From Lachnospiraceae bacterium (GTDB taxonomy: Bacteria; Bacillota; Clostridia; Lachnospirales; Lachnospiraceae), in contig JAGBLN010000038.1 of NCBI GenBank assembly GCA_017635395.1, forward strand, positions 1 to 37,306: a stretch of 37,306 bases of DNA, written 5' to 3'. Below, one piece after another: positions 24,200-36,213 of this stretch. The position numbers and the translations under genes were made by a program. A model generated the notes under the pieces. That model was not told the origin of the DNA and made no database searches. It worked only from the letters and a program-made list of their open reading frames with translations. The stretch's first letter is position 1; each line of letters begins with the position of its first letter.

Positions 24200-24979
24200 T
24201 CAACGCAGCTTTTTCCCTAATACATCCAGGATATCTGCCTTCGTGGTGGATTTAAGGATATATCCGTTCGGCCTTAAGCTCATAACACGTGATACAGCCT
24301 CCTTCGTACCGACACCAGTTAAGAATATGACCGGAATATGAGCCGTTGCCTCCTCCTGCCTGAGCATCTGCAGCACCTGGGGGCCGTCGACCACAGGCAT
24401 CTCATAATCCAGAAGTATTAAGTCTACTTTTTCATCTTCAGGCACTTTCAGAAGGAAAGTGATCGCCTGCATACCAGCAGTGACTATATCTACACGGTAT
24501 TTTTCCTTGATCCATTCCCTTACCATCTTTGCATATGAAGGATCGTCGTCTACTATCAATATCCTTTTCTTTACGAATACAGCTTCGGATTTTTCCATCT
24601 CCGCCGTAACGGTCTTTTCCAAAACCTTCATGTCTATAGGCCTGCTTAACCAGCTGTAATTCCTGAGATCCGAAATCTCACTCCGGAGATCATCCTGATA
24701 CTTTTCCTCACCTATTACAACCATCTTCTGGTTACTGCCTGCTGCAGCCTCGACTATAAGCTGGAGCTTTTTCTTTTTCATCGGATCATCCATTATGTCA
24801 CCCGGAAGGTATAATATAAACATAGCCACCCGTCCTGCCAGACGCCTTGCCTCATCTTCAAGATGTTCCGCAACCGTGGTTACCGAATATTCCATGTCGG
24901 TCAGCTTTCTTTCTATTCCCTTTACCACCACGCTGTACTGGAACATCAGTATCGCAATCTCTTTTCCTGTTTCACCCAT
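24200..24979 (-). CDS. Double-receiver response regulator without output domain
   Basis: A 259-residue protein. The C-terminal receiver (about 138-259) is complete: acidic pocket in ILIVDDDPSY (D144-D146), phospho-acceptor D191 in LILLDYEMP, T221 in VIFLTG and K243 in GYILKST. The N-terminal 130 residues look like a degraded receiver, with AILMFQYSVVVKGIE, VAMFILYLPGD, KMVVIGEE and SWLSRPIDMKVLEKTV, and no phospho-aspartate. No DNA-binding or enzyme domain is present, so it likely acts by protein contact or as a phosphate sink in the relay. The ATG at 24979 follows GGAGGATAAAT; an ATG 15 bases upstream overlaps that ribosome binding site and is not the likely start. It is the last gene of the six-gene signalling run, 30 bp after the symporter. 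Confidence 0.85.
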   Translation of the reverse strand: MGETGKEIAILMFQYSVVVKGIERKLTDMEYSVTTVAEHLEDEARRLAGRVAMFILYLPGDIMDDPMKKKKLQLIVEAAAGSNQKMVVIGEEKYQDDLRSEISDLRNYSWLSRPIDMKVLEKTVTAEMEKSEAVFVKKRILIVDDDPSYAKMVREWIKEKYRVDIVTAGMQAITFLLKVPEDEKVDLILLDYEMPVVDGPQVLQMLRQEEATAHIPVIFLTGVGTKEAVSRVMSLRPNGYILKSTTKADILDVLGKKLR

Positions 24980-25009
24980 ATATTTATCCTCCATATTTTT
25001 TTACGATTT

Positions 25010-26545
25010 TTAATCGTCTTCTTTTTGAACCATCCTGACAGCTTCTTTTTGTATATCCGGGTCATATGAGAGCATAGGCTCCACATCATTCCCTTTTATC
25101 CTTCTGTCCGCATAGTTTCTTGTAAGCTTTATTATAAGAGGAGCCTGCACCAGCAGCCCTATCAGGTTCGGGATCATCATCAGGCCGTTAAAGGTATCCG
25201 AAATATCCCATGCCAGGTTTGATTCCATAACGGCACCGAATATTATAAGACCCACAAAAATGAAACGGTATATCTTTGCCGCCTTTACTCCGAACAGATA
25301 CTCCGTAACCTTGGCACCATAGTACGACCATCCCATAACCGTTGTAAAAGCAAAGAGCGTGACGGCCACCACCACAAACCACTCGCCAATCATACCGAAA
25401 TTCGAACCGAAAGCCTGGGCCACCAGTGTGGCATCATTCACCCCCTCAGCAGCCAGGCCGGTATTCAGGTCTATGGCACCCGAGTTCAGTACAACTATCG
25501 CTGTCATGGTACATATCACGATGGTATCCAGGAAAACCTCTGCAATGCCCCACATTCCCTGTCTCACCGGTTCCCTGTTGCAGCTTGTACTATGGACCAT
25601 AACGGATGAGCCAAGTCCTGCCTCATTTGAAAACACACCTCGCTTGCAGCCGTTCTTTATCGTATTTAAAGCTATCTGCACGGCAGTTCCCGCTGCACCG
25701 CCCTTTATGGCAGCAGGGCCCAGCGCAAACTTAAAGATCGATACAAAAACCGCCGGGACACTTCCTATGTTCATGACGATCACTACGAGACATCCGGCTA
25801 TATAAATGATGGACATTGCCGGCACCAGTGTTTCCGACACTGCGGCAAGTCTTCTGAAACCGCCCAGGATTATCAGTGCTACGGCGAACATAAGTGTAGC
25901 ACCTATAAACCAGTTTACAACGGATACACCCATGATTGTTCCGACATCCACATTGGCCAGGAAAGTTGATGCCAGTGCGTTTTCCATGTTAATGGTGATC
26001 TTGTTGATCTGGCCCATATTGCCTATACCGAATGAAGCAAGTACCGTAAAGATACAGAATAGTATTCCCAGTATCCTGCCTAACTTTTTGCAATGCTTTA
26101 TTCCGCCAAGACCGTCCTGCAGGTAGTACATAGGTCCGCCGGACCAGGCTCCGTCCACATTTCTGCGCCGGTAGTATACTCCCAGAAGATTTTCTGAGTA
26201 TTTCACCATCATTCCGAAAAAAGCCGCAACCCACATCCAGAATACAGCCCCCGGACCGCCTACGCATATGGCCGTGGCTACTCCGGCTATGTTACCTGTA
26301 CCTATGGTTGCACATAACGCAGTACAGAAAGCACGGAAAGGCGACAATGCACCTGCATCATTTATGATACGTCCTTTTCCATCGATCACGCCAAAGGTAT
26401 TCTTCCACCAGTGCCTTATATGCGTGATCTGGAAAAAACCTGTTATTAGGCTGCATATTATACCGGTCCCTAAAAGCAGGGAAAGGCCAAAAGTTCCCCA
26501 GGCAAATCCATTTAACGCTTCATTTATCTCTACTACAATTCCCAT
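25010..26545 (-). CDS. AGCS-family alanine/glycine:cation symporter
   Basis: A 511-residue membrane protein that takes up alanine or glycine with sodium or protons. The family signatures are clear: LSPFRAFCTALCATIGTGNIAGVATAI followed by GGPGAVFWMWVAA in the N-terminal third, GAWSGGPMYYLQDGLG in the next loop, and KRGVFSNEAGLGSSVMVHS in the middle. About 10 or 11 membrane segments are present. The start codon lies 6 bp past the stop of the DegV-containing kinase, and the double-receiver gene follows 30 bp downstream. A transporter within a kinase operon may act as a co-sensor or respond to the same signal. There is no riboswitch upstream. Alanine is the best guess for substrate. Confidence 0.93.
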   Translation of the reverse strand: MGIVVEINEALNGFAWGTFGLSLLLGTGIICSLITGFFQITHIRHWWKNTFGVIDGKGRIINDAGALSPFRAFCTALCATIGTGNIAGVATAICVGGPGAVFWMWVAAFFGMMVKYSENLLGVYYRRRNVDGAWSGGPMYYLQDGLGGIKHCKKLGRILGILFCIFTVLASFGIGNMGQINKITINMENALASTFLANVDVGTIMGVSVVNWFIGATLMFAVALIILGGFRRLAAVSETLVPAMSIIYIAGCLVVIVMNIGSVPAVFVSIFKFALGPAAIKGGAAGTAVQIALNTIKNGCKRGVFSNEAGLGSSVMVHSTSCNREPVRQGMWGIAEVFLDTIVICTMTAIVVLNSGAIDLNTGLAAEGVNDATLVAQAFGSNFGMIGEWFVVVAVTLFAFTTVMGWSYYGAKVTEYLFGVKAAKIYRFIFVGLIIFGAVMESNLAWDISDTFNGLMMIPNLIGLLVQAPLIIKLTRNYADRRIKGNDVEPMLSYDPDIQKEAVRMVQKEDD

Positions 26546-26551
26546 CAGGCC

Positions 26552-29500
26552 CTAACCTTTCCTGAGCACTTCCAAAACGCCGTCATAATCATACTGGCCT
26601 GCCTTTTCGAAAACAGCCTCATATTTTTCCTTTTCGTTTTCAGGTATCGAATAGTCCTTCAGTTCGTCAAATATCTGATCCATTGCATCACAGTCCATGG
26701 CTTCAGCAGCTTCTTCAAGCCCCTCGTATACTCCCTGCATCAGATATTCATCGGCAACAGGCTTGTCGGAATCATCTTCCTTTTTCATGAGGGGACTGAG
26801 CAGCGACTTATACGTCTGGTATTCTTCCAAAAATGCAGTATTATTAGCCTTGATGTAAGCAATGTCATCTTCCTTGCCGGCCATTTCAAGCAGGCGTGCA
26901 TTTTCAGAGAGTTCCATTGCGCCTATAAGCTTTGCAGAGCTTTTAAGGGCATGAACCTTTATCGTGTAATTTTTCCAGTCACCATTCTCATAGAAACGAG
27001 TCAGTTCAGCAGACTTATCATCTATTGAATCATAGAATATCTGAAGCACTGTCTTGAAGGCCTCTTCGGATCCGCTGTTCTTAATGGCGATACTTCCGTC
27101 TATTCCGTCTATATTGTCATACCATTCAGAAGATTTTGTTTCATCAGTTTTTTCACCGTCAGAATGATCAGCATCTTCTATTACAGCCTCCGTATCGTCC
27201 TGTTTCTCCTCATAGTGTTCCTCCTGCTCTTGCCCGTTGTCGAAACTTTCCTCGCCATGCCCATCCTCAAGAACGGTTTCACCTACAAAGTATGAACCCA
27301 GATTATAAGACTTATTGGATTTAACAAAATAAAATATGCCCAATGTTCCGGGACCGCAGTTGGAAGATATAGCCGCTGATGCCTGCTTAAAGATCACTCT
27401 TTCAAAGTAGGCATACTTGCTGACTTCTTCCTTAATCCACGCAAGCATATCAATCGAAACATCCACATATGTTATAAATACAACTTCCGGATCCGGTATT
27501 ACATCAACAGGAAATGCTTTGGAAATATATTTTCTGTAAGCCCGTTTCCGGTCTCCCATCCATACTCCGCCAACCTTAACCTTATCATCAGATATCCTGA
27601 TACAAGGATGCAGATTAAGGGCATGAGCCATACGGTCCATCTCGCCGCTTATGATCCCTCTTTTAGCCATGTATTCAGTCTGATCTATGACAAAGCTGCA
27701 CTTCAAACGGTGTTTTACTGTTTCAAGCTCATCAACAATATCATCAACAGGCATACCTGTCTGTACAAGCTTCTGCGCTATAAGAACCAGAATACCCGCT
27801 GCTGATGAGATACCGCCAGAATTAATGACCTTCACATTATCAAACGCTTTCGCCGCTTCCGAAGACCGCTTGTAATCTTCACTCATACCGGTAGTAATCG
27901 CGATATGGATAAGGTGATGGGCATGCTTAAGCGTGGAAGCGAAGAACTCCGTGTAAGCTGCTTCATCCGGCGGAGCCGACTCAGCGCTCTTTCCTGCATT
28001 AATATAGCGTATCAGCTCATCAGAGCCCATCTGCACGCCATCCTTAAATATTCCCTCCTCAGTCCTTATCATAAAAGGAAGAATCGAAATCCCCTGTTTC
28101 CTGACGATTGAATCCGGAATATCACACATGCTGGTACAAGTAACTATAACCTGCATTTTACCGGAATGACTTGACGTAGCATGAATATCCTCATTCGTGC
28201 CAATCATACGGCTGCCACTTATGATCAGCTTTTCCCCGGAGATAAATCTTATCATCACTTTTTCAAGTGCATCCCCGGATACCGGTTTTACTAAATGACC
28301 GTCAAAGCCTGCGCGGTTATACAGCTCATGATTTTCTCCGCCGGCATTTGCGGTAAGTACTACAACAGGAGTATTTCGGTTTAATCCTCCCGACTGCATA
28401 CGCAGCCTCTCCATACACTCTATGCCATCCATTTCCGGCATAAGGTGATCCATGAGGATAACATCATAATGGTACCGCAGAGAAAAATCCAGCGCATCCC
28501 TGCCGCTTAATGCTTTATCAATGGTGACACCGGAATCTGCCAGCAGTCGGCTCTCCACTTCAAGGTTCATCTCATTATCATCCACTATGAGTATGCGAGC
28601 CTCGGGAGCATGGAAGCTACACTCATACTTTGTACGGTCCGCAATGTTCTGATTATGGATATTCACTTCACCGATCTTTGTGGCACCAGAAACACCCTGC
28701 ATAACAGAAAATGTAAATGTAGAACCCTCACCGTAAACACTGCTTACACTGATAGTGCCCCCCATAAGTTCTGCCAGCTGTTTTACAATAGACAATCCCA
28801 GTCCGGTACCTTCTATGTGATGGTTCTTCTCCTCGTCAACGCGCTTAAATACATCAAATAGATAGGGCAGCGCCTCTTTCTTGATTCCCATTCCGGTATC
28901 GCTTACGGAAATAGTCAGCTCAACAGCATCTTCGCCTTTTGCCTCACTTTCCACACGAAGCTCAACGTTTCCTGAAGACGTATACTTTACAGCATTATTC
29001 AGCAGATTAAGTACCACCTGCTTTATACGGACTTCATCACCATACAGTACCGCCGGCACATCCGGATCTACGATCACATTAAATTTCAGGTCTTTTTCAT
29101 TTGCCCGGTGCCAGATCATATTCACCAGTTCAGAAAGCATATCAGCCACCCGATAATCTACGGGAACAATATCCATTCCTCCAGCTTCCATCTTGGAAAA
29201 ATCCAGAATGTCATTGATTATCGCAAGCAGCATTTTTCCGGATCCCTGTATTCCGTTGGCATCCTTAATAATTTCATCCGATGCATCCGGGTCCCTGAGT
29301 ATCAGCTCGTTCAAACCCAGAATAGAATTAATAGGGGTACGGATCTCATGGCTCATGCTTGAGAAAAAGCGGTTCTGTGCCCGGGTCAGTTCCTCTGCCT
29401 TGTCAGCCGCATCACGCGCCCTCTTATTCTCACCCTTATAAAGCCTGTTCTGAAACCATGTCATGGCAAAGCAGATAGTGCCCACCATTACAAGTGAAAG

Positions 29501-29995
29501 ATATGAATCAAAATAGAACATTTCTTTTGAATGTTCATAGATCAGCTCCGGATAGTAGTAATTCACAAGATAAAAAACAAGTGATTCGATAACTAACAGA
29601 ACCAGCATCACATTTCGCCAGCTTCCCGTAAGGACAAGGCCGACGTAGATAAAACCGAAAATAAACCACAGCACACCGCCGCCATGCAGCCCGCCGCCAA
29701 AGAAAAACAGTCCCGGAAGTATCAGGAATATAAGCGTTAAAACGGTGATCTTGATAACAAGTCCGATTTTATTTCTTTTCAATCCTATATAGTCTACGAC
29801 AGGGACAAAAATAAGCGTTGCTATCAGCACTATATTTTCTATGGGGTTCTCATTCATTATAAGATCCCCGATAAGTGCCACAAACACTACTACCTCCGAT
29901 ATTATGGAAAGGCCAAGATAAACACGCTCGGAAAATTCCCACTCCGGATCCTTTATCACATTGATCAGACTTTTTACGAAACTTTTGTTATCCAT
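26552..29995 (-). CDS. Hybrid histidine kinase: six membrane segments, HisKA, HATPase, REC, DegV-like domain, Hpt
   Basis: A 1147-residue protein. Six membrane segments lie in residues 27-182. HisKA follows with phospho-acceptor H216 (SHEIRTP), then the ATPase domain (DTGMG 366-370, GTGLGLS 396-402), and a receiver (D472/D473, D516, T548, K570). Residues about 614-890 match DegV: VIVTCTSMCDIPDS at the start, LIHIAITTGMSEDYKRS, VKVINSGGISSAAGI, YMAKRGIISGEMDRMAHALNLHPCI (the usual GGRIS/LNIKPI block) and SNCGPGTLGIFYF at the end. An acidic linker (about 905-955) leads to Hpt with H1015 (VHALKSSA) and a 64-residue tail. DegV proteins bind fatty acids. The ATG overlaps the stop of the upstream kinase (TAATG) with GGGAGG before it. 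Confidence 0.92.
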   Translation of the reverse strand: MDNKSFVKSLINVIKDPEWEFSERVYLGLSIISEVVVFVALIGDLIMNENPIENIVLIATLIFVPVVDYIGLKRNKIGLVIKITVLTLIFLILPGLFFFGGGLHGGGVLWFIFGFIYVGLVLTGSWRNVMLVLLVIESLVFYLVNYYYPELIYEHSKEMFYFDSYLSLVMVGTICFAMTWFQNRLYKGENKRARDAADKAEELTRAQNRFFSSMSHEIRTPINSILGLNELILRDPDASDEIIKDANGIQGSGKMLLAIINDILDFSKMEAGGMDIVPVDYRVADMLSELVNMIWHRANEKDLKFNVIVDPDVPAVLYGDEVRIKQVVLNLLNNAVKYTSSGNVELRVESEAKGEDAVELTISVSDTGMGIKKEALPYLFDVFKRVDEEKNHHIEGTGLGLSIVKQLAELMGGTISVSSVYGEGSTFTFSVMQGVSGATKIGEVNIHNQNIADRTKYECSFHAPEARILIVDDNEMNLEVESRLLADSGVTIDKALSGRDALDFSLRYHYDVILMDHLMPEMDGIECMERLRMQSGGLNRNTPVVVLTANAGGENHELYNRAGFDGHLVKPVSGDALEKVMIRFISGEKLIISGSRMIGTNEDIHATSSHSGKMQVIVTCTSMCDIPDSIVRKQGISILPFMIRTEEGIFKDGVQMGSDELIRYINAGKSAESAPPDEAAYTEFFASTLKHAHHLIHIAITTGMSEDYKRSSEAAKAFDNVKVINSGGISSAAGILVLIAQKLVQTGMPVDDIVDELETVKHRLKCSFVIDQTEYMAKRGIISGEMDRMAHALNLHPCIRISDDKVKVGGVWMGDRKRAYRKYISKAFPVDVIPDPEVVFITYVDVSIDMLAWIKEEVSKYAYFERVIFKQASAAISSNCGPGTLGIFYFVKSNKSYNLGSYFVGETVLEDGHGEESFDNGQEQEEHYEEKQDDTEAVIEDADHSDGEKTDETKSSEWYDNIDGIDGSIAIKNSGSEEAFKTVLQIFYDSIDDKSAELTRFYENGDWKNYTIKVHALKSSAKLIGAMELSENARLLEMAGKEDDIAYIKANNTAFLEEYQTYKSLLSPLMKKEDDSDKPVADEYLMQGVYEGLEEAAEAMDCDAMDQIFDELKDYSIPENEKEKYEAVFEKAGQYDYDGVLEVLRKG

Positions 29996-32043
29996 TATGC
30001 CTGACCTCCCTTCCCTCTTACTGTTCCGGAAAGTTCATGCATCATTACTCTTTCAAAATCCGCAATATTAATGGGTTTTGCAATAAAGCCGTCAAAACCT
30101 TCCTGCATAAACATTTCTCTTGCACCGGAAACAGCATTTGCAGTAAGAGCGATAACTATAACCTTTTTATTCTGTTCGCTGGCTATGGCCTTGATCCATT
30201 TCATAGCTTCCACGCCATCCATCTCCGGCATCATATGATCCATGAAGACGACATCATAATCATTATTCCTGAATTTGCTGATGGCTTCCTTTCCGCTTCC
30301 TGCAGTTTCAATTATCATTTCGTATTCGCTAAAGAGTCCTGTTGCCACCACCAGGTTCATAGGCTCATCGTCTACAACCAGCGCTTTCACATTCCTGAAT
30401 ACAGGCCTTTCGCTCTGTGTCGCATCTTCAAGATTTCCCACATCAGTTCCTTCATTCAAAACCTTGATCAAATGATAGGCATAAAGCGGCTTAGGAATTA
30501 TCAGAACCCTGCTGCCGGGACTGGACTTGAATCCCGAAGCAGCTGCTACAGCAACTACAACTTTCCCCTTGCTAAGTTCATCAAAATAGTCCGGGTTCTC
30601 TTCATACTCACTCTGTCCCATGAATATAAATGAAACATCCAGTTTCTTCCTCAGGCGCTCAATTTCCTTGATGCTCTGTGCCGAATAAAGCGGAACGTGT
30701 ATTCCCATTGCAAGATTTGTCGCCATATAACGGTAAAAATCACGCACCCTGGGAACCTGATACTTATCCATCCTGACATGGAAAAGAATATCTCCAGAAA
30801 AAGTTCCAGAAAGCATAAGGCACGGCGTCTTATCAGCAACTTTCTGAGGCAATGTGACACGCACGGTAGTTCCTGTTTTCAGTTCACTTTCAATCTTTAC
30901 GAAACCGCCCATACGGTGAGCAAAACCATACACTATAAACAGTCCTAAGCCTATTCCACCTGAACTCCTATTTCTTTTTTTATTAACCTGATACATTCCC
31001 TGGGACAGGGAGGCGATCGCCTTTCTGTCCATGCCTATGCCGGTATCAGTCATCTCAATGCACAGATTCACGCCGTAATCCGTTTCCTCTGCAAACATTT
31101 TCACGTAGATACCGCCACGCCTGGTGAACTTCACTGCATTCTCCAGAAGATGCCTGAATATCTTATGGATCTTTTTGACATCACCGTGCATCTTGGCCGG
31201 AACCATAGGATCCATATCAACAACAAGCTCCAGATTCTTCTCATTTTCCAGCAGACGGAAACTTGTTACCACATCATTGATCAGTGATGTGCTCATATAA
31301 TCATTTTCCTCAAGTATGACCTTGTTGCGCTTGCATTCCGTATAATCCTGAATATCCTCTATCTGATAAGCTAACCTCATACCAGCAGTTTTGATGGAAA
31401 CGGCCTCTTCCCCCACATCCTTTTTCATGAGCATTTCAGACATACCGTTTACTACATTTACAGGAGTACGGAGTTCATGAGAAATATTTGTGAGAAAGTC
31501 TTCCATATCCGCATCTACAGCTTCTATCCGTTCATCTTTTTCCACTTCGGACTGCATCCTTTCAGCCCTGTCCTTAACTATTCTCACACAGCAGAAATAA
31601 ACCAGCAGAACAACGCTGACATGCAGAATTATCTTCGCATTATCGAGCTTATTGAAATCATAGGTCGAATGGCTCATTGCAATAAATAACTGCGTGAACA
31701 GAAGAATAAAAAATTCCGTAAGAAAAGTATTCAGCATATAAATGCTGTTAACAAATGAAAAAACCGCAAGGGCAAACAGTATTACAACCGCTATATCAAA
31801 TAAACTGGTTTCATGAACACCGTGATAAAAAATTGTCAAAACGGCATAGATAAAATAGCAGACCTTGCGAATCCCTAGTGACGGCTGGCCCATAATCTGC
31901 ATTATCCATAGGCCTACCGTTGCAATGACAATCCGTGGCGGCACCCAGAATTCCCAGCCCATAAGGATGCTCACGGCCGCAAGCCCCAGTCCGCCAGGTG
32001 ATATCAGCATCAACAGAAGTCTTTCATTTTTTTTCTGATCCAT
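29995..32043 (-). CDS. Hybrid histidine kinase: six membrane segments, HisKA, HATPase, pseudo-receiver, REC
   Basis: A 682-residue kinase. Six membrane segments in residues 9-156 leave almost no outside domain, so it probably senses the membrane or partners. HisKA has H189 in NISHELRTPVN; the ATPase domain shows N302, DTGIG (333-337) and GGIGLGLF. A degraded receiver-like stretch (about 408-530, LMLSGTFSGDILFHVRMD to RVLIIPKPLYAYHLIKVL) lacks the acidic pocket. The C-terminal receiver is complete: VVDDE (D558, D559), FMDHMMPEMDG (D602), T634 and K656. There is no Hpt domain, so transfer may go through the Hpt of its neighbours. ATG follows a GGGGGAG; the gene lies 22 bp after the REC-GGDEF gene and overlaps the next kinase by one base. 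Confidence 0.92.
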   Translation of the reverse strand: MDQKKNERLLLMLISPGGLGLAAVSILMGWEFWVPPRIVIATVGLWIMQIMGQPSLGIRKVCYFIYAVLTIFYHGVHETSLFDIAVVILFALAVFSFVNSIYMLNTFLTEFFILLFTQLFIAMSHSTYDFNKLDNAKIILHVSVVLLVYFCCVRIVKDRAERMQSEVEKDERIEAVDADMEDFLTNISHELRTPVNVVNGMSEMLMKKDVGEEAVSIKTAGMRLAYQIEDIQDYTECKRNKVILEENDYMSTSLINDVVTSFRLLENEKNLELVVDMDPMVPAKMHGDVKKIHKIFRHLLENAVKFTRRGGIYVKMFAEETDYGVNLCIEMTDTGIGMDRKAIASLSQGMYQVNKKRNRSSGGIGLGLFIVYGFAHRMGGFVKIESELKTGTTVRVTLPQKVADKTPCLMLSGTFSGDILFHVRMDKYQVPRVRDFYRYMATNLAMGIHVPLYSAQSIKEIERLRKKLDVSFIFMGQSEYEENPDYFDELSKGKVVVAVAAASGFKSSPGSRVLIIPKPLYAYHLIKVLNEGTDVGNLEDATQSERPVFRNVKALVVDDEPMNLVVATGLFSEYEMIIETAGSGKEAISKFRNNDYDVVFMDHMMPEMDGVEAMKWIKAIASEQNKKVIVIALTANAVSGAREMFMQEGFDGFIAKPINIADFERVMMHELSGTVRGKGGQA

Positions 32044-32065: not shown

Positions 32066-33406
32066 TCAGGGCCCCTCATTAAAGTCAATAGTATCAGCAT
32101 TATGCCGTATCTCAAACAATGCGGAATACTCCGTCTTTTCCCATTTAGCCATAATACGGCCCACTACTATATCCACGGCTTCCTGGCCCATCTCCGGGAG
32201 CAGCAGGAAGAACATGTTCTGTCTGCTCTGGAAAATGATATCCGTTCTGCGAAGGCTTTCCTGAAGTATTTCTCCAAAACACATGACTGCATCCGCAAGC
32301 TGGGCTTCACCAGATTTCACATCAACAGCGAAAAGCATCTTGCAGGCCCTTGACTTATATCTTTTCAGGAAACGGACAATGAAACGGTAGTTTGCCGAAA
32401 AAGCATCCTGTCCAAGGATCATGGCCCCCTTTCCTGCACCTCGCTCTTCTACGAGCCTCGTAACTCGAATCAGTTCCCTTCCCAGATCATTATCAGAATC
32501 CTCTACATCCGTATGCGAACTGTACACTTCATAGCCGTGTTTCCCGTTCTGCTTCACCCTATACAGACTGCTGTCGGCATACTGAAAAAGTATAGGATAA
32601 TCTGTACCGAATTCAGGCACGAAAACAACGCCGGCAGATATACCCAAAGGGATTCCGAAATCCTCTCCCATAAGCTTTTCCGCTTCCGATGTCAGAAGGT
32701 CATTGAGCCTGTTTACAAGATCCTCAATATGGCTCAATTCTTCCATCCCATTCATGAAAAGCATGAATTCGTCGCCGCCTATCCTGCTGGCAACATCATT
32801 CTCCCTGATGCTGCGCCGCACGATGCCAGCAAAAGCCCCTAGCACCTTATCGCCCATATCATGCCCGTAGAGATCATTTACAAGCTTAAAGCTATCAAGA
32901 TCCAGCACAATAAGGGCACCTGTACTTTTTTCGCACAGGGCTGAAATCTTTTCTGTTCCGCTGCTCTTATTTAAAAACCCGGTAAGCTTATCTATAGATG
33001 CTTCTTCGACCAGGTTTTCAATCATCCTGCCGTTTTTTACCGTGTTATTGATACGACTGATTAAGATTTCCCTGTCAAACGGCTTTCTTATGAAATCCGA
33101 TGCACCTGCAACCAGGCCGCGCTTTTCGGTTTCTGCATCTTCATCACCTGTAAGAAAGATTACGGGTGTAGGAAGCCTATCTAGATTTTTCTCCTGCTCC
33201 CTTAAAAGCCTTAAGGCCTCAAACCCATCCATTTCGGGCATCATAATATCCAGAAGTATCAGATCCGGCTCATTCTTTTCCATGAACCTGAGCATATCCT
33301 GACCGGACCTCATACAGGACACTTTCATACCCTGCGATGTCAGCAATTTTCTTGCATTTGTAAGGCTCAGGGCCTCATCATCCACTACTGCGATCCATTC
33401 CTGCAT
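32066..33406 (-). CDS. Response regulator diguanylate cyclase with a second, degenerate GGDEF-like domain
   Basis: A 446-residue protein. The receiver has D9/D10, phospho-acceptor D53 (LLDIMMPEMDG), T86 and K108. The GGDEF domain (about 136-295) has DKLTGFLNK, LDLDSFKLVND, active site IGGDEF (G210-F214) and a proper inhibitory site R201-E-N-D204 five residues before it, so cyclic-di-GMP synthesis under product control is expected. Residues about 325-440 look like a second GGDEF fold: MLFAVDVKSGE, then RRTD (386-389), IIFQS and RQNMF in place of GGDEF. The RxxD spacing is kept while the active site is lost. ATG follows GAGGGGATTTAACG, two bases after the stop of the upstream kinase. Confidence 0.92.
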   Translation of the reverse strand: MQEWIAVVDDEALSLTNARKLLTSQGMKVSCMRSGQDMLRFMEKNEPDLILLDIMMPEMDGFEALRLLREQEKNLDRLPTPVIFLTGDEDAETEKRGLVAGASDFIRKPFDREILISRINNTVKNGRMIENLVEEASIDKLTGFLNKSSGTEKISALCEKSTGALIVLDLDSFKLVNDLYGHDMGDKVLGAFAGIVRRSIRENDVASRIGGDEFMLFMNGMEELSHIEDLVNRLNDLLTSEAEKLMGEDFGIPLGISAGVVFVPEFGTDYPILFQYADSSLYRVKQNGKHGYEVYSSHTDVEDSDNDLGRELIRVTRLVEERGAGKGAMILGQDAFSANYRFIVRFLKRYKSRACKMLFAVDVKSGEAQLADAVMCFGEILQESLRRTDIIFQSRQNMFFLLLPEMGQEAVDIVVGRIMAKWEKTEYSALFEIRHNADTIDFNEGP

Positions 33407-33408
33407 CG

Positions 33409-36213
33409 TTAAATCCCCTCTTCTTTTGACAAAAGACTCACAATACCATCATAATCATATTGCGAATATGCATCCTTTAGCTTTTCATACAGATCCGCAT
33501 CCTTCTGCGGTATGCTGTAAGCATCCATTTCTTCGAAAACACCTTCCAGCCTGTCACAGTCCATCTCCTCAGCAGCCGCAAGGAGCTCTGCAAATACTTC
33601 GGACATTATGTTTTCATCAGCCTCAGGCTTATCTGATGTGTTTTCTTCTTTTCCTATGATAGGTTCAAGCAAGCCTTTAAACCGCCTGTACTCTTCCATA
33701 AAACCGCTGTGCTGTGCACGGATATATACAATATCTCCGCCCTTGCCCGCATCCTCAAGCTTCTGGGCCTTTTCCCCGAATTCCGTTGCTCCGATTATTC
33801 TTGCGGAGCTCTTAAGCGCATGCACCTTTATCGTATAGCTCTTATAATCACCGGCATCATAATACTGATCCAGTTCTTCCGCCTTCTCATCAATGGAATC
33901 ATAGAACACCTTTAATAATACCCGGTATGAGGACACATCACCGCTGTTAATGATTCCCTTTAATACATCAACATTTGCATCCGCAAGCTCTGTCATATCC
34001 TCGGGAATGGATAAATCTTCTTTCTTTTCAGGCTCTGCTTCTTCGATGCTTACCCCTGACACTATTATCTTCTCTGCCGGAAGATAGCGTACAAGCATTT
34101 CTTCCAGTTCTTCCGAATCGATGGGTTTTGAAAGATAATCATCAAAACCTGCCTCAAGATACTTTTCCCTGGCTCCCGATATGGCGTTAGCCGTCAGGCA
34201 GACCGCAGGTACTGTGGAATTGGGATTCTCTTCGTCTTCCTTTATGTCATGGAGAGTCTCTATGCCATCTTTTACAGGCATCATATGATCCAGGAAAAGC
34301 ATGTCGTATCTGTTTTCCCCAGAAAGCTTAACGCCTTCGATACCGTCATTTGCCGTATCGACACGCATTCCCAGCAGCTTGACCAGACTCTTGAATACTA
34401 TGAGATTCATGGGATTATCATCCACCACAAGTATGCGTGCATCGGGTGCTATAAAGCGTTCTTTATAACGCTCCTTTGATTCCAGATGCTCCCTGTAGGA
34501 TGCTTCATAATCTCCGATGGGAGTCCAGTCCTTAACTTTCTGTTTCAGTTCAAAGCTAAAGCAGGAACCTTCTCCGTATACGCTCTCAACATCTAACTCC
34601 GAGCCCATCAGTTCAAGCAGGTTGGATGTTATATTCATTCCAAGGCCTGTGCCCTCAATGTTCCTGTTTCTGCTTTCCTCGATACGTTCAAACTTAGAAA
34701 AGAGCTTTGCGATATCCTCTTCTTTTATACCGATGCCGGTATCCTTTACCGATACTTTAAGAAGGACGGCATCATCGGCATCCCCTGTTTTTTCATATCC
34801 GACTTTCAGTAAGACACTGCCCTTTTCCGTATATTTGACGGCATTGGTCAGCAGGTTAGTTATTACCTGCTTTACACGGAGTTCATCGCCTACCAGAAGT
34901 TTCGGGGTGTTATTATCGATCTCAAGCTTAAACAGCAGACCCTTTTTTTCAGCCCTTAAGTGCACCATGTTTACCAGGTCGCTTATGGTTGCCGAAAGAT
35001 CGTATTCCGCCGGATTGATCTCCAGCTTTCCTTCCTCTATCTTTGAAAAATCAAGAATGTCATTGATAAGTCCCAGCAGATTTTTACCCGCAGTCCTGAT
35101 GTTCTCGGAATAATAGACTATCTGCTTGTCGTCGCTCTCCCTGAGGATCATCTCGTTCATGCCAAGGATCGCATTTATTGGCGTGCGGATCTCATGGGAC
35201 ATATTGGAAAGAAATGCCGATTTAGCCTCGTTGGCTGCAATTGCAGTTGTTGACATATGGAGATATCTTCCGGACCGCCCCATAATGATACCGATTATTA
35301 TGACCGTTACGATGATCGCTGTAATGGTCGCAAGAAGTATCTTATTCAATGAACCGAAAACCCTTGTGGCATCCTTGACGGAAACACAGTACCAGCCATT
35401 CTGTATTTCCGAAGCGTACACAATGTAATAAGCGCCATCATGCTGGAATTCAAAGGAATTCCCTTCCATCGTCTGAAGTCCTCTGACAACGGATGCACCC
35501 AGGGTACCGTTTTCCTCAAAATAATTCTTTCCATTCTCCGAAGCATCGGAATGAGATACCACAACCCCCTTATCGTTAAGGATCATCTCAATATCCGAAT
35601 ATCCGCCTTTAACCGCATCCTCAGTAAGTTTCTGTACCTGATCCAGAGACACATCAACAGAAATAACACTCACCCCGTCGCAAAGCGTCTTGCCAAGAGC
35701 AAGCATGACATTTCCCGACTGCATATCCACATAGGGATCCAGTATAGTGACTTCACCGGGATTTTCCATAGGTTTCGTATACCAGGGACGGATCACGGGA
35801 TCATAATCTGCAGGCGGTTCCCAGTAGGTCCCGCTGAAAAACCTGCCGTTAATGTATCCGTACAGACCTGTAGAATTCTCCATGACCGCGCTCTTTATGG
35901 CAGTTGACTGGTCCACAAGAAAAATCTGGATCTCATCGTCAGACCTGTGCTCCGTTATCATTCCGTCCAGGGTATATGCAGTAAGCTTTATGGAATCTAT
36001 GTTTGTGGAAAGATACTTGTCAAACTGTTCGGCTGATTTCTGGGTGGTCAGCTCACCTTCCCTGATGATGTTTTCACGCTTTTCATTGTAGAGCATACGA
36101 TAGTACAGTATGATGATACCCGCGAAAAAAACGATCACCAGAATGGTAACTATAATGTTCCTTATGGTAAGATTGATTCCTTCTTTATCTTTCTGACCAC
36201 CAAGTGTTTTCAT
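33409..36213 (-). CDS. Hybrid histidine kinase: dCache sensor, HisKA, HATPase, REC, Hpt
   Basis: A 934-residue kinase and the first gene of the signalling operon. Two membrane segments (about 18-38 and 291-312) frame an outside double-Cache domain, with FFSGTYWEPPADYDPVIRPWYTKPMENPGEVTILDPYVD typical of small-ligand Cache sensors (amino acids or acids). HisKA has H340 (MSHEIRTPINAILG); the ATPase domain has DTGIG (491-495) and GTGLGMN (521-527); the receiver has D598/D599, D642, T674, K696; Hpt has H798 (VHALKSSARIIGA). A 64-residue tail (about 867-930: AAEEMDCD, AYSIP, QYDYDG) is shared with the DegV-containing kinase. The ATG has no strong ribosome binding site. The promoter lies at 36298-36327. 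Confidence 0.94.
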   Translation of the reverse strand: MKTLGGQKDKEGINLTIRNIIVTILVIVFFAGIIILYYRMLYNEKRENIIREGELTTQKSAEQFDKYLSTNIDSIKLTAYTLDGMITEHRSDDEIQIFLVDQSTAIKSAVMENSTGLYGYINGRFFSGTYWEPPADYDPVIRPWYTKPMENPGEVTILDPYVDMQSGNVMLALGKTLCDGVSVISVDVSLDQVQKLTEDAVKGGYSDIEMILNDKGVVVSHSDASENGKNYFEENGTLGASVVRGLQTMEGNSFEFQHDGAYYIVYASEIQNGWYCVSVKDATRVFGSLNKILLATITAIIVTVIIIGIIMGRSGRYLHMSTTAIAANEAKSAFLSNMSHEIRTPINAILGMNEMILRESDDKQIVYYSENIRTAGKNLLGLINDILDFSKIEEGKLEINPAEYDLSATISDLVNMVHLRAEKKGLLFKLEIDNNTPKLLVGDELRVKQVITNLLTNAVKYTEKGSVLLKVGYEKTGDADDAVLLKVSVKDTGIGIKEEDIAKLFSKFERIEESRNRNIEGTGLGMNITSNLLELMGSELDVESVYGEGSCFSFELKQKVKDWTPIGDYEASYREHLESKERYKERFIAPDARILVVDDNPMNLIVFKSLVKLLGMRVDTANDGIEGVKLSGENRYDMLFLDHMMPVKDGIETLHDIKEDEENPNSTVPAVCLTANAISGAREKYLEAGFDDYLSKPIDSEELEEMLVRYLPAEKIIVSGVSIEEAEPEKKEDLSIPEDMTELADANVDVLKGIINSGDVSSYRVLLKVFYDSIDEKAEELDQYYDAGDYKSYTIKVHALKSSARIIGATEFGEKAQKLEDAGKGGDIVYIRAQHSGFMEEYRRFKGLLEPIIGKEENTSDKPEADENIMSEVFAELLAAAEEMDCDRLEGVFEEMDAYSIPQKDADLYEKLKDAYSQYDYDGIVSLLSKEEGI

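Follow-up and report, generated by a model that had tools for sequence, protein, structure and literature searches.

A FakB-related DegV domain within a hybrid histidine kinase of Lachnospiraceae: a candidate acyl-ligand domain of a two-kinase phosphorelay

The window analysed here is a stretch of 37,306 nucleotides of DNA from Lachnospiraceae bacterium (GenBank assembly GCA_017635395.1, contig JAGBLN010000038.1). On its minus strand, at 26552..29995, it encodes a hybrid histidine kinase in which a DegV domain is placed between the receiver (REC) and the histidine phosphotransfer domain (Hpt), and we refer to this DegV-containing hybrid histidine kinase as DHK. The DegV domain belongs to a clade that is linked to phosphorelays and stands apart from free-standing DegV proteins, which normally each carry one fatty acid. 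The best reading of the sequences, which we hold with somewhat more confidence than doubt, is that it would be a FakB-derived domain for an acyl ligand that is not an enzyme substrate, and that gates a phosphorelay of two kinases. The parts of DHK are as follows (all on the minus strand; aa, amino acids; TM, transmembrane).

26552..29995, minus strand: DHK, 1147 aa, in the order TM-HisKA-HATPase-REC-DegV-Hpt (open reading frame, Pfam and NCBIfam)
29549..29929, minus strand: membrane region, residues 23-149, with about five hydrophobic segments ahead of the kinase (Kyte-Doolittle scan)
29180..29380, minus strand: HisKA, residues 206-272, with H216 (Pfam)
28703..29041, minus strand: HATPase_c, residues 319-431 (Pfam)
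28259..28594, minus strand: receiver (REC), residues 468-579, with D516 (Pfam)
27326..28135, minus strand: DegV, residues 621-890 (Pfam)
26867..27049, minus strand: Hpt, residues 983-1043, with H1015 (Pfam)

All five Pfam domains of DHK (HisKA, HATPase_c, REC, DegV and Hpt) lie above their curated cut-offs. An initial annotation of this DNA, made from the letters alone, had proposed that a DegV domain is built into a hybrid histidine kinase between its receiver and its Hpt, and had suggested a domain search of the region around residues 600-900. That search bears out both the identity and the position of the domain: it matches PF02645 with 122.2 bits (cut-off 27; E 3.2e-35) over positions 7-278 of the 280 in the profile, and NCBIfam TIGR00762 with 133.7 bits (cut-off 99.7). 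The sequence also matches those of solved DegV and FakB structures, the best being 2dt8 (E 2.6e-21), with FakB1 at an E of about 5e-11. The Hpt scores 26.5 bits against a cut-off of 24.6. The expected phosphoacceptors are H216, D516 and H1015. H216 and D516 do not vary across the 41 aligned proteins (that of the window and 40 relatives), and in the same sample Pfam finds HisKA, HATPase, REC and DegV in every member. The top NCBIfam matches of the kinase part are of the BarA, TorS and ArcB type, all below their cut-offs.

The DegV domains that are linked to a phosphorelay form one clade. From 220 records (L004 and L005, which are copies of counted loci, were omitted) 207 were left on removal of near-copies at 97%, and 204 on removal of three short pieces; 172 of these are linked to a phosphorelay and 32 are free. 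The linked domains comprise 84 of the order REC-DegV-Hpt, i.e. with their own Hpt (the window's class), 75 of the order kinase-REC-DegV that lack an Hpt (three of which stop at a contig end), eight other fusions and five separate genes beside a kinase. The label 'adjacent' was assigned after the neighbouring gene was seen, and since the sequences of the clade are related the counts are not independent. The free copies were good matches to the fused domains or to that of the window, together with the three of the window's genome and a few chance finds, so that the contrast between linked and free domains should be conservative. A careful tree with 79 rows (53 linked) separates the linked domains from the free ones with a support of 100/100, and the clade has a support of 99 in a FastTree tree of 205 rows (172 linked, and 32 free copies).

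The first branch of the careful tree carries four of the five separate-gene forms, which suggests that DegV has been part of the system through several kinds of fusion. That one DegV lineage is joined to the same type of relay at different places is good evidence that DegV works in the relay. At least eight matches in short frames scored above 246 bits. Seven of these were fetched; five are the separate genes (found because they score like the fused domains), one is a DegV-Hpt protein (L107), and one is cut by the contig end and retains a piece of a receiver (L112). Each of the five separate genes has a kinase gene on its own strand that overlaps it or is at most 10 bp away. By contrast, none of the 25 free DegV genes checked has a same-strand kinase gene within 300 bp; two have a kinase gene on the opposite strand and one has a same-strand kinase gene at 922 bp. 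Nor was a homolog of a protein of the DHK operon (at least 70% coverage, same strand) found within 4 kb of free DegV at any of 28 loci.

We note some less common arrangements. The 1578-aa protein of L113:5808-10544 has an N-terminal DegV followed by a dCache sensor, histidine kinase, REC and Hpt, and apparently brings one internal and one external input to a single kinase. L107:7887-9131 and L119:8737-10194 encode DegV-Hpt proteins that have no kinase domain and adjoin a hybrid kinase, the Hpt of L119 lying below the Pfam cut-off. The kinase-DegV proteins of L114:7951-10563 and L201:4790-7378 match a kinase only weakly, with no receiver detected, and are possibly degenerate kinases. At L120:7751-13140 a tandem pair of DegV kinases lies between two Hpt-bearing hybrid kinases. 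The DegV at L145:5817-7226 is of the free type (i.e. the counterparts of FakB1 His270 and Arg205 are kept) and has a 190-aa N-terminal region with no Pfam match, and in the relative at L166:2544-4232 the DegV region is broken by a stop codon.

In FakB three insertions build the fatty acid tunnel, and these are absent from the tunnel-less C-terminal domain of FakA (FakA_C), according to the available sections of PMC9136124. If the insertions of FakB1 are taken as residues 27-62 (a), 164-185 (b) and 264-273 (c), their lengths by sequence alignment are 34, 22 and 10 residues in DHK compared with 36, 22 and 10 in FakB1, and these lengths are kept in the linked DegV domains, one contig-cut row excepted. 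We considered the FakA-like C-terminal family (PF13684) as the true identity of the DegV domain of DHK. This is not supported, the tunnel insertions being present; PF13684 matches one of the 41 sampled proteins (E 9e-5), L106 scores 25.8 bits (cut-off 23), far below its 160.6 bits for DegV, and no significant profile match was found between the linked DegV domain and the FakA-type protein of the same genome.

The carboxylate of the fatty acid in FakB1 is held by Thr62, Ser95, Ser171 and His270, the last of which helps to balance its charge. Arg173 is required for phosphorylation and catalysis, and Arg205 is the residue by which FakB docks to FakA and the membrane (available sections of PMC8892158 and PMC9136124); both arginines are described as completely conserved in FakB (PMC8892158). 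The corresponding residues in DHK are S673 (Thr62), S705 (Ser95), R779 (Ser171), I781 (Arg173), M813 (Arg205) and N879 (His270). The serine of the ESAPP motif was set at Thr62 by ungapped alignment with 1pzx and by multiple alignments, while one HMMER alignment puts it one column off. The segment ITTGMSEDY had been read initially as altered binding-site residues, and this was mistaken: Ser95 is kept there as S705, and Thr62 is changed to serine (S673). A binding site that differs as a whole is ruled out; the real changes are those of His270 to N879, Arg205 to M813 and Arg173 to I781.

These changes are general in the clade. Position 270 is asparagine in 162 of the 172 linked domains (83 of 84 in the window's class), while all 32 free domains have histidine. 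Arg205 is present in two of the linked domains, Lys203 in none, and Arg173 in 46 (six of 84 in the window's class), yet each of the three is found in 32 of 32 free domains. The hydroxyls that would contact the head group are largely retained, 153 of 172 domains having Ser or Thr at position 62 (84 of 84 in the window's class) and 131 of 172 having Ser95 (83 of 84 in the window's class). Position 171 is lysine or arginine in 75 of the 84 members of the window's class. The site of Trp180, which inserts into the membrane in FakB1, is hydrophobic in all 32 free domains, but in the window's class 59 of 84 have lysine or arginine there, as do 26 of 75 in the class lacking an Hpt. As judged by alignment, the tunnel segments and head-group hydroxyls of the linked domains appear to stay while the wedge that contacts FakA and the membrane is lost, and this signature of residues may separate a likely sensor from an enzyme substrate.

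Some of these losses might also be expected of a dead scaffold, i.e. a DegV domain that spaces or dimerizes REC and Hpt or recruits a protein, with no binding of a small molecule. His270, Arg205 and often Arg173 are lost, Ser95 is relaxed to 38 of 75 in the class lacking its own Hpt, and FakA_C, a FakB-like domain that has no tunnel and binds FakB, indicates that the fold can be used for protein docking (available sections of PMC9136124). But the insertions that FakA_C lacks are kept here, again with one contig-cut row excepted, the head-group hydroxyls are near-invariant in the window's class, and His270 is replaced predominantly by a single residue rather than by a mixture. We regard a scaffold as unlikely, while taking it seriously.

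The gene for DHK is preceded by that for a second hybrid kinase, whose stop overlaps the start of DHK by one base.

29995..32043, minus strand: partner hybrid kinase, 682 aa, TM-HisKA-HATPase-REC (open reading frame, Pfam, and homologs upstream in relatives)

A homolog of the partner kinase lies directly upstream in 140 of the 143 relatives with room for it, by a 4-bp overlap in 73 of them. In two of the three misses (L115 and L116) there is an Hpt gene on its own and the partner is split, with an Hpt on its second piece; the third (L060) has a shortened partner piece. No Hpt was found in the partner kinase of the window. Among 138 intact pairs DHK bears the Hpt in 74 and the partner bears it in 59; five pairs have it in neither protein, and none has it in both. 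As for the five that lack it, at L022 the Hpt is encoded by a gene of its own next door, at L020 a neighbouring receiver-Hpt gene is truncated at the end of the contig, and L120 is the tandem with Hpt-bearing neighbours; for L032 and L089 we have no explanation. Pfam alone places an Hpt in 17 DHK and 18 partner proteins of 41 pairs, compared with 19 and 19 by our own profile. The pattern is consistent with two kinases feeding a single Hpt that they would share. On the FastTree tree the label of own Hpt changes six times with all rows included, and this falls to two when contig-cut rows, L032 and L089 are left out.

DHK and its partner are part of a collinear set of genes on one strand, which in order of transcription encode a third hybrid kinase (HK-REC-Hpt, where HK is histidine kinase), a REC-GGDEF protein, the partner kinase, DHK, an AgcS-type symporter and a 264-aa receiver protein. 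The spacing between them runs from a 1-bp overlap up to 22 bp.

33409..36213, minus strand: third hybrid kinase, HK-REC-Hpt, 934 aa (Pfam)
32066..33406, minus strand: REC-GGDEF protein, a putative diguanylate cyclase output (Pfam)
25010..26545, minus strand: AgcS-type sodium:amino-acid symporter, 6 bp downstream of DHK (PF01235, 421 bits; TIGR00835 above its cut-off)
24200..24994, minus strand: 264-aa receiver protein, the final gene of the collinear set (Pfam)

The 264-aa protein has about 140 aa ahead of its receiver with no Pfam match, which by eye resemble a degenerate receiver. The gene order is identical in Lachnospiraceae bacterium AB2028, with a DegV identity of 97%; we take AB2028 to be an isolate, because its record is not marked as a metagenome assembly. 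Homologs of a DUF6976 gene (PF22396) are found at 36 of 80 named loci (e.g. L065:11943-12905, 321 aa), mostly directly downstream of the DHK gene and often ahead of the AgcS symporter. No match in the PDB was found for the DUF6976 protein, and the 6 bp between DHK and symporter in the window leave no space for such a gene.

The symporter might bear on the nature of the ligand. It is conceivable, though rather improbable in our judgement, that the domain binds something other than a fatty acid, such as a signal lipid, an acylated metabolite of another kind or a small molecule that is not a lipid. The change of His270 to asparagine and the loss of Arg205 and Lys203 alter the head-group side of the site, and an amino-acid symporter gene is linked in 38 of the 53 units of the window's class with enough flank. 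Yet the symporter is linked in none of 36 units of the class lacking its own Hpt, so that as a clue to the ligand it is weakened, being confined to the own-Hpt class; moreover the tunnel segments are kept, and lysine or arginine at 171 could still meet an acid.

In the mechanism that we prefer, a FakB-derived module would have been removed from fatty acid metabolism and would now be a permanent part of a two-kinase phosphorelay, keeping the tunnel segments and the hydroxyl pair for the lipid head group and losing the basic wedge for docking to FakA and the membrane, together with the catalytic arginine in the window's class. DHK and its partner kinase would phosphorylate their own receivers and pass the phosphate to one Hpt, and from there to free receivers, i.e. 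those of the 264-aa protein and the REC-GGDEF protein. DegV, tethered between REC and Hpt and presumed to have the FakB fold, would bind an acyl compound from inside the cell, either a fatty acid or something closely related to it, and the flow of phosphate through the relay would change with this binding. The sequences themselves show the domain order, the clade, the signature of residues, the pairing of the genes and the single Hpt per pair; we infer from them that a ligand is bound, what it is, that the Hpt is shared and in which direction control runs. Docking to FakA would be unnecessary for the DegV of the relay, and a membrane wedge of its own would not be needed because DHK is already tethered to the membrane. 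In these gut and rumen bacteria the DegV domain probably serves as an internal sensor of a lipid-like molecule. A fuller version, in which the FakB paralog clade is a dedicated lipid-sensing input, the acyl-loaded domain gates the two kinases via a shared Hpt, and the relay reads the internal free-acyl pool in rumen and gut Lachnospiraceae, is put forward more tentatively, as a possibility that falls a little short of probable.

The initial annotation had offered two roles for the domain, i.e. sensing of intracellular fatty acids, or presentation of a lipid to the kinase while phosphate is relayed. The association of the clade with phosphorelays, the tunnel insertions, the two hydroxyls (in the window's class) and the loss of the residues of a FakA substrate support sensing. 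Presentation of a lipid is disfavoured where FakA is the kinase, because the DegV domain of DHK has lost Arg173, Arg205 and His270. Besides DHK the genome encodes three free-standing DegV proteins and a protein that matches TIGR03599 with 555 bits, a family that we take to be YloV and thus FakA, and these would serve ordinary fatty acid activation. It is very improbable that DHK acts as a tethered FakB, with FakA phosphorylating the fatty acid that DHK carries and so coupling lipid activation to signalling; a FakA-type protein is present and the domain is homologous to FakB, but Arg205 is almost absent from the clade and Arg173 is kept in a minority of it, least of all in the window's class, and methionine and isoleucine take their place in the window.

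Several points weigh against an acyl-ligand domain that gates the relay. Asn270 cannot balance the charge of a carboxylate as His270 does, a loss for which lysine or arginine at 171 may compensate. In the class lacking an Hpt the pair of Ser/Thr62 and Ser95 is present in 38 of 75, which speaks against a single ligand for the whole clade, some members of which may have ceased to bind carboxylates. The loss of the membrane-docking residues poses the question of how a lipid would enter. Lastly, with two changes of the own-Hpt label only, the many pairs represent few independent events, to which the separate-gene and DegV-Hpt arrangements are to be added.

Such a DegV domain occurs in at least 96 open frames that are 480 aa or longer (that of the window and 95 fetched), spread over at least 69 of 397 genomes of the window's family, and this supplies the survey of such fusions in Lachnospiraceae that had been suggested at the outset. 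In the searches of family, phylum and class the best candidates were scored, up to six per genome, and the counts are lower bounds. Ninety of the frames have the order kinase-receiver-DegV (20 of these also carry an Hpt, and one has an internal stop), three have DegV ahead of the kinase, two match a kinase weakly with no receiver detected, and one is DegV-Hpt. Among the matches listed for 398 genomes across the phylum, fused forms occur only in the window's family, except for G367, a 580-aa frame whose DegV is of the free type. In the search of 391 genomes of the class at least three genomes of genus g646, family f179, also carry the fusion (L209, L210 and L211), and this rules out a clade limited to one family. 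These three are nearest to the forms of Lachnospiraceae, at about 0.9-1.0 changes per site, and may reflect either horizontal transfer or ancient inheritance. By record title nearly every one of the 80 named loci is from Lachnospiraceae or Butyrivibrio, two being from Eubacterium sp. and one from an 'uncultured bacterium'; many come from ruminant guts, where the title gives the source. Four records of Butyrivibrio sp. (NC2007, XPD2006, XPD2002 and VCD2006), none of them marked as a metagenome assembly, likewise have this gene behind that partner kinase.

We can practically dismiss a fusion that arose by frameshift, assembly or binning: the genome of the window is in draft form (58 contigs, 72.6% complete), but such open frames recur in many genomes, including the four Butyrivibrio records, and DHK is not an assembly chimera because AB2028 shares the gene order and the 41 sampled proteins share the domains.

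The initial annotation knew of no described example of this order of domains, and none was found in the titles and abstract openings of open-access papers on DegV (EDD) and kinases, a search that lay outside subscription papers and domain-architecture databases. In their available sections, papers that mention DegV describe it as a gene neighbour of hemolysin III (PMC3146951), as a free protein within a deleted region (PMC12688256) or as a gene present in a genome (PMC3533761), with no fusion described. What appears to be new is a known carrier fold in a phosphorelay role, with a diagnostic signature.

Sensing of the internal pool of free fatty acids by bacteria is, to our knowledge, little understood. 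Here a known fatty acid carrier is hard-wired into phosphosignalling across many genomes, the hosts including Butyrivibrio, and DHK provides a defined protein for studying lipid control of a histidine kinase.

The clade of DHK resembles FakB and free DegV proteins (PF02645, TIGR00762; S. aureus FakB1) in its family, its tunnel segments and, in the window's class, its pair of Ser/Thr62 and Ser95. It differs from them in having Asn270, in the loss of Arg205 and Lys203 and (in the window's class) of Arg173, in being fused or adjacent to a kinase, and in forming a separate clade. We know of no DegV domain in SaeS. The SaeRS histidine kinase system of S. aureus is inhibited by cellular fatty acids (available sections of PMC5539427), and by analogy this would be a precedent for the principle rather than for the part. 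The C-terminal domain of FakA (PF13684) is likewise a FakB-related domain inside a kinase protein, that of FakA being metabolic; it is tunnel-less (PMC9136124), whereas the DegV domain of DHK keeps the tunnel segments. With the tripartite hybrid kinases of the BarA, TorS and ArcB type DHK shares the order of membrane region, HisKA, HATPase, REC and Hpt; it differs from them in the DegV domain that separates REC from Hpt, in the second hybrid kinase upstream and in the single Hpt per pair.

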